From positions 1,531-65,530 of the forward strand of contig CAKKRM010000098.1 of assembly GCA_919902735.1 (NCBI GenBank): a stretch of 64,000 nucleotides of DNA, given 5' to 3'. The notes under the pieces were generated by a model. The model was not told the origin of the DNA, did not search any database, and was given only the letters and a program-made list of their open reading frames with translations. This document shows, piece by piece, positions 1,891-64,000 of the stretch (position 1 is its first letter; each line of letters begins with the position of its first letter). Source of the stretch: Anaerolineales bacterium. GTDB lineage: Bacteria; Chloroflexota; Anaerolineae; Anaerolineales; Villigracilaceae. The position numbers and the translations under genes were made by a program.

Positions 1891-4089
1891 ATGTCTGAAA
1901 ACTCTGTCGGAAAATCATATCCGCGTGTGGATGCGCGCGGGAAGGTCACCGGGCAAACTCTCTACTCCGGTGATTTAGTCATGAAGGGTATGTTGCACAT
2001 GAAGATTCTCATGGCAGAACGCCCTCATGCCCGCGTGAAAGACATTCGTGTGGAAAAAGCCCTGGCCTCGCCGGGGGTTGTGGCTGTGTACACCGCAAAG
2101 GATGTGCCGCTCAACGAGTATGGATTGCAAATTCCAGACCAGCCCGTGCTATGCGGCCCGGGCGCGAGCAAGCCACACACAGACATCGTCCGCTTCGTGG
2201 GGGATCAAGTTGCAGTCGTGGTCGCCAACTTCGAGGTCGAGGCAGAGGCGGCGATGAAATTGATCGAGGTGGATTACGAAGACCTTCCGCTTCTTTCCGA
2301 CCCGATCACTGCCATGCGTCCCGATGCGCCTCTCCTACATCCAGACAGGGGCGCCACGAACGTGTGCGTGCATTACAAAATCCGCAAAGGGAATGTGGAC
2401 GCGGCCTTCGCCAACGCCGATGTGATCGTCGAAGGCGAATATCACACCCCCGTTCAGGAACATGCCTACCTCCAGCCCGAAGCGGGACTGGCCTATATCG
2501 ACGAGCAGGGACTTGTCACCGTGGAAGCCGCAGGCCAGTGGACACATGCTGACCGGGAAACCATCGCACATGCCCTGGGTCTGCCAGATGAAATGGTGCG
2601 CGTGGTCTACCCTGCCATCGGCGGCGCGTTCGGCGGACGGGAAGATATGTCTGTGCAGATCGTGCTGGCTCTCGCCGCGTGGAAGTTACAGCGGCCGGTC
2701 AAGATCGTCTGGTCGCGGCGCGAATCGATCATTGGGCACGGCAAACGTCACGAGGTATTTCTCAAAGCCAAATGGGGAGCTACCAGCGAAGGAAAACTCG
2801 TCGCAGCAGAATCAGAATTGGTTGGGGATGGAGGCGCGTACATGTACACCTCCAACAAGGTGCTTGGCAACGCGGCCATCACATCCACAGGCCCGTACTT
2901 CATCCCGAATGTAAAAGTGGATGTGTACGGGGTGTACACCAACAACCTGCCCGGCGCAGCCTTCCGCGGGTTCGGCGCGCCGCAAGCCCTGTTCATGGCT
3001 GAGTCGCAAATGAATAAACTCGCCGAACAGCTTGGCATGGACGCGGTGGAGTTCCGCCTGCTGAATGCCCTGCGCGATGGCGATACGCTGGGCGTTGGCA
3101 CGCCTGCCCCCAACCCTGTCAGCATCGTCGAATGCATTGAAGCCGCGCGCGATAAATTTGGCTGGAAGAAACGCAACACGCAACACGCAACACGCAACAA
3201 ACAGCGGGCATCAATCGTCCGTGGTCGAGGTTTTGCGGCGGGCTTCAAGAATGTTGGCTTCTCTTTTGGCTATCAGGAAAACTGCTGGGCGAAAGTTGAA
3301 ATTCACGGCAACGGCGCAATGGATCGCGTTATCGTCCATCACGCGGGCGCGGAGGTTGGGCAAGGCACACACACGGTCATGATCCAGATGGCCGCGCAGG
3401 TTCTTGGAATTCCCGAAAGCAAAGTGGAATTGCGGACTTCGGACTCAGCCACGCAAGGCAACCCTGGCTCTGCCTCCGCTTCGCGCCTGACCTTTATGGC
3501 TGGCAACTCGATCAAAGGAGCAGCGGAAGCCGCCCTGGCAAAATGGAATGTAGAAGAGCGCCCCGCGATTGCAGAGTTCAAATACCTTGCGCCGCGCACA
3601 ACTCCATTCGACAAAGAGACGGGCTATTCCATGCCCAATTTTCAATATGCGTATGTGGCCCAGGCCGCCGAAGTGGAAGTGGATACGGAGACGGGCCACG
3701 TCCGCGTCATCCGTTTGGTCTCTGCGGATGATGTCGGCAAAGCCATCAACCCCGACCTGGTGGTCGGTCAAATTGAAGGCGCGGTGGTGCAGGCGCACGG
3801 CTACGCCCTCCTCGAAGAGTACAAGATGAAAGACGGCAAAGTGCTCACCGATCAGTTCAGCACCTATCTCATCCCCACCATTTGGGATATCCCCGAAAAA
3901 GTGGAATCCGTTTTGGTGGAAGTCCCCGACCCGAACGGTCCCTGGGGCGCGCGCGGCATGGGCGAATTGCCCTACCTGCCCGTTGCGCCAGCCATCGCGG
4001 CGGCCATCCACGACGCGACTGGTGTTTGGATCAGCGAATTCCCGTTTACGCCGGAGCGTGTGTTGAGGGCGTTGGGGAAGATTGAGTAG
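1891..4089 (+). CDS. Molybdenum hydroxylase, molybdopterin-binding large subunit (xanthine dehydrogenase/CoxL family)
   Basis: IGGAFGGREDMSVQ, GAAFRGFGAPQALF, GQGTHTVMIQ, WGARGMGELPYLP (catalytic Glu region). Confidence 0.94.
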   Translation: MSENSVGKSYPRVDARGKVTGQTLYSGDLVMKGMLHMKILMAERPHARVKDIRVEKALASPGVVAVYTAKDVPLNEYGLQIPDQPVLCGPGASKPHTDIVRFVGDQVAVVVANFEVEAEAAMKLIEVDYEDLPLLSDPITAMRPDAPLLHPDRGATNVCVHYKIRKGNVDAAFANADVIVEGEYHTPVQEHAYLQPEAGLAYIDEQGLVTVEAAGQWTHADRETIAHALGLPDEMVRVVYPAIGGAFGGREDMSVQIVLALAAWKLQRPVKIVWSRRESIIGHGKRHEVFLKAKWGATSEGKLVAAESELVGDGGAYMYTSNKVLGNAAITSTGPYFIPNVKVDVYGVYTNNLPGAAFRGFGAPQALFMAESQMNKLAEQLGMDAVEFRLLNALRDGDTLGVGTPAPNPVSIVECIEAARDKFGWKKRNTQHATRNKQRASIVRGRGFAAGFKNVGFSFGYQENCWAKVEIHGNGAMDRVIVHHAGAEVGQGTHTVMIQMAAQVLGIPESKVELRTSDSATQGNPGSASASRLTFMAGNSIKGAAEAALAKWNVEERPAIAEFKYLAPRTTPFDKETGYSMPNFQYAYVAQAAEVEVDTETGHVRVIRLVSADDVGKAINPDLVVGQIEGAVVQAHGYALLEEYKMKDGKVLTDQFSTYLIPTIWDIPEKVESVLVEVPDPNGPWGARGMGELPYLPVAPAIAAAIHDATGVWISEFPFTPERVLRALGKIE

Positions 4090-7540: not shown

Positions 7541-8361
7541 ACCCTCTCATCTTAATTCGCGGCGGCGGCGACCTTGCAAGCGGCGTGGCTTTGCGCCTGC
7601 ATCGCGTCGGCTTTCAAGTGGCGATCCTCGAACTGGACAAACCACTCGCGGTGCGCCGCAGCGTTTGCTTTTCAGAAGCAGTGTACGAGGGAATGCAAAC
7701 TGTCGAGGGTGTCATCTCAAGGCTTGTGTCGGCAGACCAGTTTCAGGTCACGTTGGAGGCGGGTGAAATTCCAGCGCTGGTCGACCCGAATGCAAACATC
7801 CTTCGCAATCAATTTTTGACGAGTCCGCGATCCACTTTTCTTGTGGATGCAAGATTGTTGAAGTCTGAACCTGAACCGCTGAGCATGAACATCCCGCTTC
7901 ATATCGGACTTGGGCCTGGATTCCGCGCAGGAGAGAATTGCCACGCTGTGATAGAAACCCGCCGCAGCCACACCCTCGGCAGGGCGCTGTGGAGCGGAGA
8001 GACCCAACCCGACAACGGCCAGCCCGATGGCGACTCACGCCGCGTGCTGCGTGCGCCAGACTCCGGGACGTTGATTCCCCTCGCAGAGATTGGTGACCAC
8101 GTCAAGGAAGGCCAACTCATTGCAGAGATTCAATCGTCAACCGAAAATCGAAAATCGAAAATCGTAAGTCCCTTCAACGGCCTCCTGCGCGGACTGATCC
8201 ACCCGCGCGTGGAGATCACCGCAGGCATGAAGATCGGCGACGTGGACGCGCGCAACGACCCGTCCATGTGCAAGCTGGTTTCAGACAAGGCGCTTTCCGT
8301 TGGCGGCGGCGTTCTGGAAGCGGTGTTGATAAAACTGAGGGAATTTGAAAATTTAGAGTAA
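7537..8361 (+). CDS. yqeB: Selenium-dependent molybdenum hydroxylase accessory protein, YqeB/EF2563 family
   Basis: LILIRGGGDLASGVALRLHRVGFQVAILELDKPLAVRRSVCFSEAVYEG; LGPGFRAGENCHAVIETRRSHTLGRALWSG; ATGA overlap with the upstream gene. Confidence 0.88.
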   Translation: MNPLILIRGGGDLASGVALRLHRVGFQVAILELDKPLAVRRSVCFSEAVYEGMQTVEGVISRLVSADQFQVTLEAGEIPALVDPNANILRNQFLTSPRSTFLVDARLLKSEPEPLSMNIPLHIGLGPGFRAGENCHAVIETRRSHTLGRALWSGETQPDNGQPDGDSRRVLRAPDSGTLIPLAEIGDHVKEGQLIAEIQSSTENRKSKIVSPFNGLLRGLIHPRVEITAGMKIGDVDARNDPSMCKLVSDKALSVGGGVLEAVLIKLREFENLE

Positions 8362-14714: not shown

Positions 14715-14752
14715 ACTGATCACTGATTACTGATTACTGATCACTGATTACT
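14715..14752. repeat. 7-bp tandem repeat ACTGATY, 5 units
   Basis: ACTGATC ACTGATT ACTGATT ACTGATC ACTGATT ACT immediately after the ileS stop. Confidence 0.93.
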
Positions 14753-18734: not shown

Positions 18735-20303
18735 CTAGCAGTCCGAGCAGAAAGTTGGGGTACGACTTGGCGTTGGCGACGGTGTGCGCGACGGTGTGGG
18801 CGTTATTTGAGTTGGTGTGCGCGTTGGTGTGCGCGTTGGTGTGCGCGTGATCGTCGGTGTATTCGTAGGTGTACGGGTCGGCGTACGCGACGGTGTGAGG
18901 GTGATCGTCGGTGTGAGGGTAATCGTCGGCGTCTTTGACGGCGTTGGCGTACGGGATGGCGTGCGCGTGATCGTCGGTGTGCGCGTGATCGTCGGTGTGC
19001 GCGTGATCGTCGGTGTGCGTGTGATGGTCGGTGTGTTTGACGGCGTGCGCGTGAGGGTGGGTGTGGCGGTGTAATTATTGATACTGCCCACCACTACACA
19101 GTCACCCCAGTTCGGGAAGTTAAAAGTCAGGCTGATATCCCAGATGCCGGACCAGGTTGAATCGCTAAAGTCCGCAATCCATTGGCGTTCTGTGCCACCG
19201 CCGTTGATTGGGAGCGCTGGCGGGATGGAGGATGTGGTCACTGGAGAGTCGACGATGTTGCTTGCGGGGTTATAGTATGTTGTCCCAAAATTCGCATAAT
19301 CGAAGTATCTGCCAGCAAGGGGGGATGGCGACCAGCTTAAGGTAGAACTCACCAAATAAGCTGTGGCAAAGTTGTTGTTACGAACACGCGCCTCGAAATT
19401 ATCGCCGAAGAAGCGGGTGCGGTTAATGAAGATATTGGGACAGGATGGCGTAGGTGTATTGGTCATTGTAGGCGTAATGGACGGCGTGCGTGTGGCTGTT
19501 GGCGTGCGGGTTGGCGTGGGCGTGAGAGTCATCGTTGGTGTATTGGTAAGCGTTGGCGACGGCGTGATGGTCGGAGTTAGCGTGATGGTCGGAGTTAGGG
19601 TAATGGTTGGAGTGCTGGTGGGAACTGTGGGGATGTTAAGCGGCAAAGGCGTGTTGATGGCGCGCGTGGCGCGAAATTGCTCCACAATCCCTTCACGATA
19701 GGAAGCGAGATGGATCATCGAAGGCTCGATGCCAAAGGCTGGCAGAACGATAAAGGTAAAGTTGTAATCTGCGGCAACCACCACACGATTCCCAGGCGCG
19801 CCGGGGTGTTCGTTACGGATGCCGTCCAGGTTGCATTCAGCATATACGGGTCTCGCCATTAATGGGGGGATGAAGACGCGCCCCTCTTCCGCTGAACAGA
19901 CGGTGATGTTGAAATAATTTTCATCTGCATTTGTCGCGGGGTCCGGGGAGCTAAACAGCGAGGTATCCCTAAGGAAAAAGCCAACCACAATGCGGCGGGT
20001 TTCATCTTTGATGGAAGGGATGCGGGCGGCATCCACTTCCGCGTCGCCATCGTCGCAGTCTCCGTCTGAATTGCCAATTAACCCGCAGTATGGGTTGTCT
20101 TCGAAATTACCCGTTGTGGCGTAGCGGATGCCGAAACGGGTGGAATTCTCGATGATGATCCAGGCAAACATCAGGCGGGAGAATTCGATGACGCCCACCA
20201 AAAGTAACAGCAGGATCGGCAATACGAGCGCGAACTCAACCATGCCTTGCGCTTTTTTGCGATCAGGCGAACTTCGAATTTTTTTGAAAAAAAGATTGTT
20301 CAT
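18735..20303 (-). CDS. TadE-like pseudopilin-type protein with two Thr/Pro-rich low-complexity regions
   Basis: KKAQGMVEFALVLPILLLLLVGVIEFSRLMFAW (TadE N-terminal segment); long PTITLTPT / TRTPTITRTPT tracts; C-terminal CSDC. Confidence 0.87.
   Translation of the reverse strand: MNNLFFKKIRSSPDRKKAQGMVEFALVLPILLLLLVGVIEFSRLMFAWIIIENSTRFGIRYATTGNFEDNPYCGLIGNSDGDCDDGDAEVDAARIPSIKDETRRIVVGFFLRDTSLFSSPDPATNADENYFNITVCSAEEGRVFIPPLMARPVYAECNLDGIRNEHPGAPGNRVVVAADYNFTFIVLPAFGIEPSMIHLASYREGIVEQFRATRAINTPLPLNIPTVPTSTPTITLTPTITLTPTITPSPTLTNTPTMTLTPTPTRTPTATRTPSITPTMTNTPTPSCPNIFINRTRFFGDNFEARVRNNNFATAYLVSSTLSWSPSPLAGRYFDYANFGTTYYNPASNIVDSPVTTSSIPPALPINGGGTERQWIADFSDSTWSGIWDISLTFNFPNWGDCVVVGSINNYTATPTLTRTPSNTPTITRTPTITRTPTITRTPTITRTPSRTPTPSKTPTITLTPTITLTPSRTPTRTPTNTPTITRTPTRTPTRTPTQITPTPSRTPSPTPSRTPTFCSDC
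18775..19070. repeat. Degenerate tandem repeat array encoding [ST]RTPTIT
   Basis: Repeated GTGTGCGCGTGATCGTCG-like units on the plus strand; coding on minus as TITRTPTITRTPT. Confidence 0.9.
19440..19635. repeat. Second Thr/Pro-coding tandem repeat array in the same gene
   Basis: GGAGTTAGCGTGATGGTC / GGCGTGCGGGTTGGCGTG units; coding TPTITLTPTITLTPTIT. Confidence 0.88.
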
Positions 20304-40038: not shown

Positions 40039-41126
<1,088 letters not shown>

Positions 41127-49054: not shown

Positions 49055-49088
49055 AAAAAATCATAAATCGGAAATCGGAAATCACTAA

Positions 49089-61287: not shown

Positions 61288-62055
61288 ATGCCCCTAACTC
61301 TAACTTCACTCAATAACATCCCACTAATCCGCCGAGATGACAACTTGGCGGATATTGTTCTTAAGTCTTTGCAGGAAACAGGATTGGAATTACAGGATGA
61401 GGATATCCTCGTGTTTGCTCAAAAAATTGTCAGCAAGGCGGAGGGGCGCAAAGTAAACCTCGCGACGGTTTCGCCCTCCCCACGCGCCATTGAGCTTGCA
61501 CAGCAAACCGAAAAAGACCCGCGCATTGTTGAACTCATGCTTCAGGAAAGCAATGAAGTTTTGCGAACCCGCGTTGGCACGATCATTGTTGAACACAAAC
61601 TGGGATTCGTCTGCGCTAATGCAGGCATCGATCATTCCAATGTGGCGGGTGCGGGGAATTCTACAGAAGAATGGGTATTGCTGCTCCCTGAAGACCCAGA
61701 CCAATCTTGCACATTGTTGCGAAATCAAATCGAATCCAAAACTGGAAAACACATCGGCGTCGTCATCATCGATTCGCACGGGCGCGCCTGGCGCAATGGC
61801 ACAGTGGGCGTGGCAATCGGCATGTCGGGCGTCCCTGGAATTATTGACAAGCGCGGAGACAAAGACCTCTTCGGCTACACTTTGCGCGTCACCGTGATCG
61901 GAGCCGCGGACGAACTCGCCGCCGCCGCGTCGCTGGTGATGGGGCAAGCCTCCGAGGGCAGGCCCGTTGTGCATGTGCGCGGGTTTCCGTATCCATTGCA
62001 GGAAGGTTCGCTCAAGGAATTGATCCGACCCAAAGAACAGGATATGTTTCGCTAA
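61288..62055 (+). CDS. cofE: Coenzyme F420-0:L-glutamate ligase
   Basis: LQDEDILVFAQKIVSKAEGRKVNL; RIVELMLQESNEVLRTRVGTIIVEHKLGFVCANAGIDHSNV; DSHGRAWRNGTVGVAIGMSGVPGI. Confidence 0.94.
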   Translation: MPLTLTSLNNIPLIRRDDNLADIVLKSLQETGLELQDEDILVFAQKIVSKAEGRKVNLATVSPSPRAIELAQQTEKDPRIVELMLQESNEVLRTRVGTIIVEHKLGFVCANAGIDHSNVAGAGNSTEEWVLLLPEDPDQSCTLLRNQIESKTGKHIGVVIIDSHGRAWRNGTVGVAIGMSGVPGIIDKRGDKDLFGYTLRVTVIGAADELAAAASLVMGQASEGRPVVHVRGFPYPLQEGSLKELIRPKEQDMFR

Positions 62056-62092: not shown

Positions 62093-62704
62093 ATGCCCAC
62101 CAAAGAGGATTTCCATTCCTTCCTGCGGACTCGCCGCTCGATCCGCCGCTTCAAAACGGACCTTGTGCCTGATTCCGTTTTAAGGGACATCCTCCACACT
62201 GCCACATACGCCCCCTCCGCACACAACCGCCAGCCCTGGCGCTTCATCGTGTTGACAGATTTCCCCGCCAAAAAACATCTATCCGATGCGATGGCGGAGG
62301 AATTTCAACGCGACCTGGAAAAAGATAACCTCCCCCCCGACGAAATTAAAAAACGCATAAACAAGTCACGTGAAAGAATTACAGGCGCGCCTGTTGTCAT
62401 CATCCTCTGTGTGGATATGAGCGAGATGGATGAGTACCCCGATACCCGCCGCAAAAAAGCTGAATACATCATCGCAACCCAATCCGCCGCAAATGCAGGC
62501 ATGCAATTATTACTCGCCGCACACGCTGAAGGATTGGGCGGGGTTTGGGTGTGCAGTCCCATGTTTGCGCAGGATACCGTGCAGGAAGCGTTGAATATCT
62601 CAAAAATGTGGGAACCGCAAGCCATGTTCTTATTAGGTTATCCTGTGGAAATTCCTGCGTTTCGAGGAAGAAAAGTTTTAGAAGAAGTTGTGAAATTTAT
62701 TTGA
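62093..62704 (+). CDS. Nitroreductase family protein (FbiB C-terminal domain-like)
   Basis: TRRSIRRFKTDLVPDSVLRDILHTATYAPSAHNRQPWRFIVLTD; position next to cofE. Confidence 0.88.
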   Translation: MPTKEDFHSFLRTRRSIRRFKTDLVPDSVLRDILHTATYAPSAHNRQPWRFIVLTDFPAKKHLSDAMAEEFQRDLEKDNLPPDEIKKRINKSRERITGAPVVIILCVDMSEMDEYPDTRRKKAEYIIATQSAANAGMQLLLAAHAEGLGGVWVCSPMFAQDTVQEALNISKMWEPQAMFLLGYPVEIPAFRGRKVLEEVVKFI

Positions 62705-62730
62705 CCGTGGACCGTGGACGGTAGACCGTA
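62703..62730. repeat. 7-bp tandem repeat, left flank of four-helix-bundle gene
   Basis: GACCGTG GACCGTG GACGGTA GACCGTA. Confidence 0.93.
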
Positions 62731-62746
62731 TCGAAAAAGGAACAAT

Positions 62747-63157
62747 ATGCCTTTCAAATTTGAACAATTGGATGTCTGGCAATTATCTTTGGATTATTCC
62801 GATCAAATTTACGAAGTAGCTGAAAAACTACCCGAAAGCGAGCGGTTCAATCTAAAGTCTCAAATTACTCGTGCAGCAACATCAATCTCTCTAAACATAG
62901 CAGAAGGTTCAACAGGACAGAGCGACCCTGAACAAAATCGATTTCTCGGTATGGCAGTCCGCTCTCTGATCGAAACCGTAGCCTGCCAAAGACTCATATC
63001 CCGCCGAAAATATATAACCGACAAGACTTTAATGGAGCAGTTAGATTTGAAAGCCCAAGAGCTTGCCAAACGTCTACATGCTTTCCGCAAATCACTTGTG
63101 AATTCTAAAAAATCCATCAGCGAAGAACAAGCATTTTATGAAACCGATGAACACTAG
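62747..63157 (+). CDS. Four-helix bundle protein (S23/IVP, Avd-like family)
   Basis: [79 protein letters not shown]. Confidence 0.92.
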
Positions 63158-64000
63158 TGACTTAAGCCACCGTCCACCGTCCACCGTCCACCGTCGTATT
63201 GTCGCCCTTGCTGGCGGAGTCGGTGGCGCGAAACTGGCGCACGGACTCGCCCAAATCCTTGCTCCCGAAGAATTGACCATCATCGTCAACACTGGCGATG
63301 ACTTTGAACATTTGGGCATGTACATCTGCCCCGACCTTGATACAGTCTGCTATACGTTGGGAGGGTTAGCAAACCCCGAAACCGGCTGGGGACGAGTAAA
63401 TGAAACGTGGAATGCCATCGCAAATGTCGAAAGACTCGGCGGGCCTGCCTGGTTCCGCTTGGGCGACCAGGATATTGCCACCCATCTTGAGAGAACCAGA
63501 AGGTTGAAGGAAGGTCAACCGCTTTCGCAGATCACAAAGGATTTTTGCAAGGCATGGGGAATTCAACATACGATATTACCCATGTCCGATTCGCCGGTGC
63601 GGACGATGGTGGACTCAGACGAAGGCGAGCTGGCTTTTCAGGAATATTTTGTTCACAGACAATGCGCGCCCAAAGTGAGAGGCTTTCGGTTCGATGGAGT
63701 CGAAGGTGCAGAATCAGTTGTCGGCGCGAAAGAGGCGATTGATGCGGCAGATGCGATTGTCATTTGCCCGTCCAATCCCTGGGTGAGCGTAGACCCGATC
63801 CTGAAGGTCATCAAAAAAATAGCCAGGCCTGTCGTGGCGGTTTCTCCGATTATCGGCGGAAAAGCAGTGAAAGGACCTGCCGCAAAGATGTATACTGAAT
63901 TGGGCATCGAGCCTTCGGCGCTGGCGGTTGCAAACCATTATCGCAACATTCTTGCAGGTTTCGTGTTAGACAATGCAGACTTATCAATGGAAAATGATGT
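63138..64000 (+). CDS. cofD: 2-phospho-L-lactate transferase (runs off window)
   Basis: [67 protein letters not shown]...; absent from ORF track because no stop lies within the window. Confidence 0.94.
63167..63194. repeat. 7-bp tandem repeat, right flank of four-helix-bundle gene (inverted relative to left)
   Basis: CCACCGT x4 (reverse complement ACGGTGG x4). Confidence 0.95.

Follow-up and report, generated by a model that had tools for sequence, protein, structure and literature searches.

The S23/IVP gene lying within an F420 operon in a 64,000-nt stretch of a Chloroflexota (Anaerolineales) genome, hereafter the window, forms with its flanking repeats a cassette of about 490 bp that probably belongs to a widespread family of hairpin-type mobile elements. 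At either end the cassette has an array of a degenerate unit, 7 bp long (8 bp in a minority of loci), the two arrays being inverted relative to each other, and its loop encodes an S23 protein with a predicted Avd/IVP fold. Relatives differ at the same junctions, which are variously occupied, scarred or empty, and at one junction either of two S23 subfamilies may be found. S23-less mini-hairpins bearing the unit of the cassette are dispersed in the genome, and the heptamer unit is coupled to the S23 subtype.

An S23 cassette within an F420 operon

The placement of the window in Anaerolineales agrees with proteins of same-genus genomes that are identical to proteins from named records (L018 = L122 and L016 = L183). 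The F420 operon runs in the order cofE, nitroreductase, S23, cofD, with terminal inverted repeats enclosing the S23 open reading frame (ORF) (Table 1). The left array has the unit order GACCGTG GACCGTG GACGGTA GACCGTA and takes the G of the nitroreductase TGA stop codon (62702-62704) as its first base, whilst all four CCACCGT copies of the right array are exact and the cofD reading frame runs from them directly into CofD proper. The initial annotation, in which the cassette began in the nitroreductase stop codon and ended at the first structural residues of CofD, is confirmed. The inverted arms are 85-90% complementary across 20-27 nt, and the S23 ORF between them extends from an ATG at 62747 to a stop at 63157, with an AAGGA ribosome-binding-like sequence upstream. 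The closing stem of the cassette appears in the minimum-energy fold, and the fold energy of the cassette as a whole is ordinary (z = -0.46). No target-site duplication could be established, the empty junctions of relatives being too diverged to fix an exact footprint. The absence of rRNA from the vicinity, also annotated initially, was upheld by a search of 54-64 kb of the window, in which no rRNA or other Rfam family was matched; the cassette lies between nitroreductase and cofD, not inside a 23S rRNA gene.

Table 1. Coordinates of the cassette, its neighbours and a solo array of related type in the window
Feature	Position	Strand	Remarks
cofE	61288-62055		Same F420 operon
Nitroreductase family gene	62093..62704	+	Upstream neighbour; host gene, outside the cassette; ORF and profile match
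Left heptamer array, four GAC(C/G)GT(G/A) units	62703..62730	+	Starts within the nitroreductase stop codon
S23/IVP gene (PF05635, four helix bundle), 136 aa	62747..63157	+	Profile matches and predicted fold
cofD	63138..63998	+	Downstream neighbour, only partly contained in the window; its start codon falls in the 3' end of S23
Right heptamer array, four CCACCGT units	63167..63195	+	Opposite in orientation to the left array; encodes the CofD N-terminus
Solo ACTGATN heptamer array	14715..14752	.	Same type as the arrays round S23 gene L004 of the same genome

The encoded protein scored 102.5 bits against PF05635 (cut-off 33.8) and 103 bits against TIGR02436 (cut-off 24). Its fold, predicted as a four-helix bundle (pLDDT 89.8), agrees with the solved structures of the S23 proteins 2gsc (TM by target length 0.94) and 2rld and, less closely, with that of Avd (4dwl; TM by target length 0.85-0.88). 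No catalytic domain is recognised in S23. Altogether 14 PF05635 matches were found in the genome of the window, two of which are true Avd genes according to the Avd profile NF033474; unlike these, the window protein did not match that profile, nor was it accompanied by the adjacent reverse transcriptase of an Avd-type diversity-generating retroelement (DGR). Both of the true Avd proteins, L013 (G000:C77) and L014 (G000:C201), are weak PF05635 matches, with L014 lying next to a reverse transcriptase gene that is broken. Heptamer arms are missing beside both, which makes the pair a useful internal control.

Heptamer arrays around S23 genes

To the S23 loci of the genus and phylum of the window we added 80 from a public genome collection, covering many phyla and including one archaeal metagenome-assembled genome (MAG), for a total of 151 loci, 141 of them usable. 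The collection was scanned with an alignment of five closer S23 proteins, which biases these 80 loci towards their subfamily; 12 diverse S23 proteins gave an alignment too variable to serve as a query. Arrays were called as period-7 runs scoring 12 or more within 250 bp of S23, and occurred upstream in 40% and downstream in 35% of the 141 loci. Periods 4-6 and 9-12 were found beside 0-1% of the genes and period 8 beside 5-6%, the last being an octamer variant in which inverted 8-bp arrays flank the S23 gene (L124, L138 and L191). About half of the S23 genes have no array at this strict threshold. A period-7 run was present in 3.7% of control 250-bp windows farther off in the same loci, and one scoring 12 or more in only 2 of 5880 shuffled 250-bp S23 flanks; taken with the complementary arms and the PF05635 match, this confirms the original description of an S23/IVP gene bracketed by inverted 7-bp arrays.

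Arrays accounted for 15.5% of the bases in intergenic DNA near S23, against 1.6% in intergenic DNA farther off and 0.3% in coding sequence. Measured by bases, flanking heptamers are some ten times as dense beside S23 genes as in the remaining intergenic DNA of these loci; the initial annotation had named an equal frequency at random intergenic sites as one of two grounds for its rejection, and this ground fails. Arrays were present on both sides of 18% of S23 genes compared to 1 of 140 other ORFs in the same loci. The unit varies from locus to locus yet is common to both ends of one locus: the inverted match between left and right units was 0.743 within loci and 0.488 between loci (0 of 2000 permutations as high), and inverted matching beat direct matching in 49 of the 54 loci having both arrays. 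Upstream arrays are usually purine-rich (AGT, AGC, AGG), with the complement downstream. At non-homologous sites the unit type tracks the S23 subfamily, unit similarity rising once protein identity exceeds 50% (Mantel 7/1000), and unit groups include CAGCNNT and GTATATC, the latter spanning Omnitrophota and Atribacterota. Strong arms of the GGGGACT type are present in Geomobilimonas luticola JCM 17780 (L164), a cultured carrier.

A further tight gene pair resembling nitroreductase-cofD is found at L008, where an S23 gene with inverted ATGAAGG-type arrays lies between two ABC exporter subunit genes. No S23 gene was found inside 23S rRNA using two conserved 23S motifs (151 loci) or Rfam (20 loci), and the link to rRNA therefore rests on the literature.

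Occupied, scarred and empty junctions

Comparison of 49 orthologous nitroreductase-cofD junctions from the genus of the window revealed the S23 cassette in eight, a truncated S23 in two (L055 and L086) and scars at about five (L046, L047, L049, L053 and L056), where S23 is absent and an array or array-derived CofD N-terminus is kept. The remaining junctions are clean, and in most of these cofD has its native start (MKI-), in many cases overlapping with the stop of the nitroreductase gene. Orthologous junctions thus do not always carry the gene, so that the other ground named for rejecting the initial annotation also fails. Occupancy is scattered on the CofD tree, requiring eight changes, of which the starred branches force at least four. 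S23 identity was not correlated with CofD identity at these junctions, nor was CofD with nitroreductase identity; CofD and nitroreductase being themselves mutually incongruent, the mismatch between S23 and CofD is no proof by itself of repeated insertion.

The junction between the pyruvate dehydrogenase genes for E1beta and E2 is a stronger case than nitroreductase-cofD for the coming and going of cassettes. It holds a type A S23 gene in 6 loci, a type B gene of a different subfamily in 10 and none in 14, where gaps are as short as 12 nt. Where arrays were detected, they were of CAGT type around type A and of GTTG/CAAC type around type B. Closely similar S23 proteins also occupy sites without detectable flank homology, namely those of L029 and L030 (86% identical) and, between a bacterium and an archaeon, those of L128 and L153 (81%), although both of the latter are MAGs and contamination is possible. 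A NuoEF locus (L295), considered as an empty/occupied pair, was dropped since the contrast was not clean.

Other repeats occur around the pyruvate dehydrogenase genes. Several S23-free E1beta-E2 junctions (L369, L370, L381, L390 and L391) contain palindromes of the CACAAAGG/CACGAAGG type, resembling the octamers of L191, and at L004 heptamer arrays lie in-frame inside the E2 gene (2219-2250 and 2509-2556; DSGQWSVVS, NLQPATFQPSNLQPGT).

Solo arrays and mini-hairpins

Array counts across genomes were obtained from genome samples and sequence patterns. In the genome of the window, the GACSGTG unit gave 21 pattern matches in all, and its reversed control none. Beyond the cassette, the unit recurs at about a dozen other places, most of which are mini-hairpins of about 65 bp consisting of inverted arrays round a short loop. 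Three of these folded alone gave z = -4.3 to -8.5, and unit order across the two arms of mini-hairpins matched no better than between hairpins. One mini-hairpin is in-frame in a GMC oxidoreductase gene, whose orthologues vary at this site: some alleles are short or nearly empty, and others contain a different heptamer hairpin, CAGT-type arrays or a palindrome of an unrelated kind. This palindrome, CCCTCACCCCAACCCCTCTCCCTGAGGGAGAGGGGCAAGGGGTGAGGG and close variants, lies in-frame at L343, L349, L350 and L355. In unit, the solo arrays of the genome are closer to the arrays of its own S23 genes than to S23 arrays from other phyla (0 of 500 draws).

Further repeats were observed within the window itself. 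Solo arrays at 3171-3199, 8130-8170, 40084-40100 and 49058-49083, with the units ACGCAAC (twice), CGAAAAT and AAATCGG, have no close match among the compared S23-gene arrays of this genome, and positions 18776-19613 contain several overlapping tandem repeat arrays of 12, 18 and 66 bp (GTCGGCGTG-like).

The initial annotation had suggested an undescribed mobile or repeat-associated cassette. The association with repeats is firm, and mobility is supported by the occupied and empty sites, the hotspot and the S23-less mini-hairpins, yet no transposition event or enzyme was seen.

A candidate mechanism and its alternatives

Under the mobile element interpretation, copies of the cassette would spread among operon junctions and other tolerant sites, where the transcript would fold the insert into a stem and this RNA hairpin would make the insertion tolerable. 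The S23 protein may recognise its own heptamer type and promote the spread or maintenance of both the cassette and the mini-hairpins, acting on the latter in trans, in the manner supposed for RAYT proteins and REP elements. Cutting and joining could be carried out by host replication or repair, with host enzymes supplying the strand chemistry. The S23-encoding intervening sequences (IVSs) of 23S rRNA would then share this architecture, placed within a ribosomal helix. Several observations weigh against the interpretation: the many S23 genes with no array at the strict threshold, the lack of a recognised catalytic domain, the genomes with numerous GACSGTG arrays and no matching S23, the small number of kinship-corrected pairs, the incongruent histories at nitroreductase-cofD, the unmatched unit order of mini-hairpin arms, the ordinary fold energy of the cassette and the failure to establish a target-site duplication. 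We advance more tentatively the wider proposal that S23 defines a class of mobile element without a known transposase, in which the protein directs the spread of cassettes and mini-hairpins by recognising its own heptamer type, and that this class gave rise to much of the so far unexplained excess of heptamers in prokaryotic genomes, as well as to the 23S rRNA intervening sequences.

The heptamer hairpins may instead be an independent repeat family, moved by other means such as Y1/RAYT-type transposases or replication slippage, with S23 genes as passengers in insert-tolerant loops, an explanation that we consider unlikely. Consistent with such a family, more arrays stand alone in the genome samples than flank S23 genes (93 solo arrays in 1.78 Mb), Y1_Tnp genes are present in 55 of 57 genomes of the genus, unrelated palindromes occupy the same GMC oxidoreductase and E1beta-E2 sites, and some genomes (G017, G050, G022, G009 and G072) have many GACSGTG arrays without the matching S23 subtype. 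Array counts, however, are explained less well by Y1_Tnp counts (Spearman 0.26, P = 0.054) than by S23 subtype (Spearman 0.45, P = 0.0005). Across the 57 genomes the median number of GACSGTG matches was 15 with the matching S23 subtype and 0 without it (P = 0.0004, uncorrected for kinship), a link also found among genomes at least 90% complete (P = 0.0001); kinship-corrected pairs almost all pointed in the same direction and were too few for significance. In twenty-kb samples of Chloroflexota genomes, heptamer arrays numbered 16 in 380 kb from S23-bearing genomes and none in 341 kb from S23-free genomes, half of the 16 coming from one genome so that independent events are fewer, whilst most other periods were of similar order in both. 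The tracking of S23 subfamily by unit type at non-homologous sites and the rarity of other ORFs between such arrays (1/140) also argue against S23 as a passenger.

Somewhat less probable still is that the arrays are regulator sites, with S23 binding heptamer RNA or DNA to autoregulate its operon and control genes with solo arrays, the apparent mobility being no more than genes gained and lost in the usual way. The median distance from the left array to the S23 start is 27 bp, a translational role has been proposed for TAACTGA arrays near start codons (MacGregor, PMC4679880), AGT-like cores are conserved in the heptamer units with other positions variable, and S23 proteins are mostly basic (median pI 8.8, though that of the window is 5.8), all of which would suit a regulator. 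Clustering of the variable positions within the heptamer was not significant (647/5000), so a model of one repeat bound per subunit stays speculation. Such a role accounts poorly for arrays that are inverted on both sides of the gene and also lie in-frame inside coding sequences, or for cassettes that are themselves gained and lost at orthologous junctions.

A requirement for a reverse transcriptase partner, as for Avd in DGRs, is very improbable. In its favour, Avd and the DGR ribonucleoprotein both resemble the predicted fold (TM by target length 0.80-0.88), and real Avd genes exist in this genome, one beside a reverse transcriptase. Array counts, however, correlated more weakly with reverse transcriptase counts (rho 0.26, P = 0.054) than with S23 subtype, no RVT_1 was detected in four array-rich genomes (G016, G009, G069 and G071), the real Avd genes have no adjacent heptamers and the only RVT_1 match of the genome is on contig C201, other than that of the window.

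Relation to known systems

The mobile element interpretation brings together two long-standing puzzles, the function of the very common S23/IVP proteins and the over-representation of 7-bp repeats in bacterial genomes. If these are one system, both puzzles become open to testing, since S23 gains a predicted nucleic-acid target that varies by locus and the heptamer repeats gain a predicted agent. A possible origin of 23S rRNA intervening sequences would also emerge, and palindromic inserts lying in-frame in metabolic genes would find an explanation.

In REP/RAYT (TnpA-REP) systems, a single protein gene lies between inverted copies of a short repeat found, mostly in intergenic positions, throughout the genome. 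The S23 gene is likewise flanked by inverted copies of a genome-dispersed short repeat. Unlike RAYT, S23 is a small helical bundle without a Y1/HUH transposase domain, PF05635 being the only profile matched by the ORF between the arrays, and unlike the single palindrome of REP, the cassette arms are tandem 7-bp arrays. Rickettsia palindromic elements are palindromic inserts lying in-frame inside protein genes, as are some heptamer hairpins, although the units described here are heptamer arrays tied to the S23 gene family. With Avd of diversity-generating retroelements the S23 protein shares its predicted fold; it differs in having neither an Avd profile match nor a reverse transcriptase on its contig, and the genuine Avd genes of the same genome lack heptamer arms.

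Degenerate 7-bp tandem arrays, mostly intergenic and often many per genome, are also shared with the TAACTGA repeats (MacGregor 2015, PMC4679880), the GGGAATC repeats of Xanthomonas and Nostoc (Rehm 2015, PMC4692102) and cyanobacterial heptanucleotide repeats. Read on the opposite strand, TAACTGA becomes TCAGTTA, one of the CAGT-type units seen here beside S23 genes. A text search of both papers returned nothing on S23 or helix bundle proteins, and Rehm et al. drew no general link of the repeats to mobile elements (PMC4692102).

The closest precedent is the 23S IVS of Coxiella burnetii. In the sections of PMC4990558 that concern it, an S23p ORF lies in the loop of a terminal inverted repeat with a 28-bp terminal stem, GACAGAT heptamers of strain-variable copy number are situated upstream, excision is by RNase III, and the patchy distribution of S23p-encoding IVSs is interpreted as horizontal transfer; the heptamers are noted there in one species, without a general link being drawn. 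Among the open papers searched, which took in few subscription journals and preprints, it was the only one found to connect S23 with heptamers. As described in those sections, the Coxiella IVS looks like the architecture of the present cassette within rRNA, sharing an S23 ORF in an inverted-repeat loop and tandem heptamers upstream. It differs from the present cassette, which lies at operon junctions, has heptamers as both arms and is accompanied by dispersed S23-less mini-hairpins. Heptamer arrays and S23 proteins have otherwise been described separately in the papers found (PMC4679880, PMC4692102, PMC4990558), and we rate as new the generalisation of the IVS architecture to free-standing cassettes with dispersed mini-hairpins.
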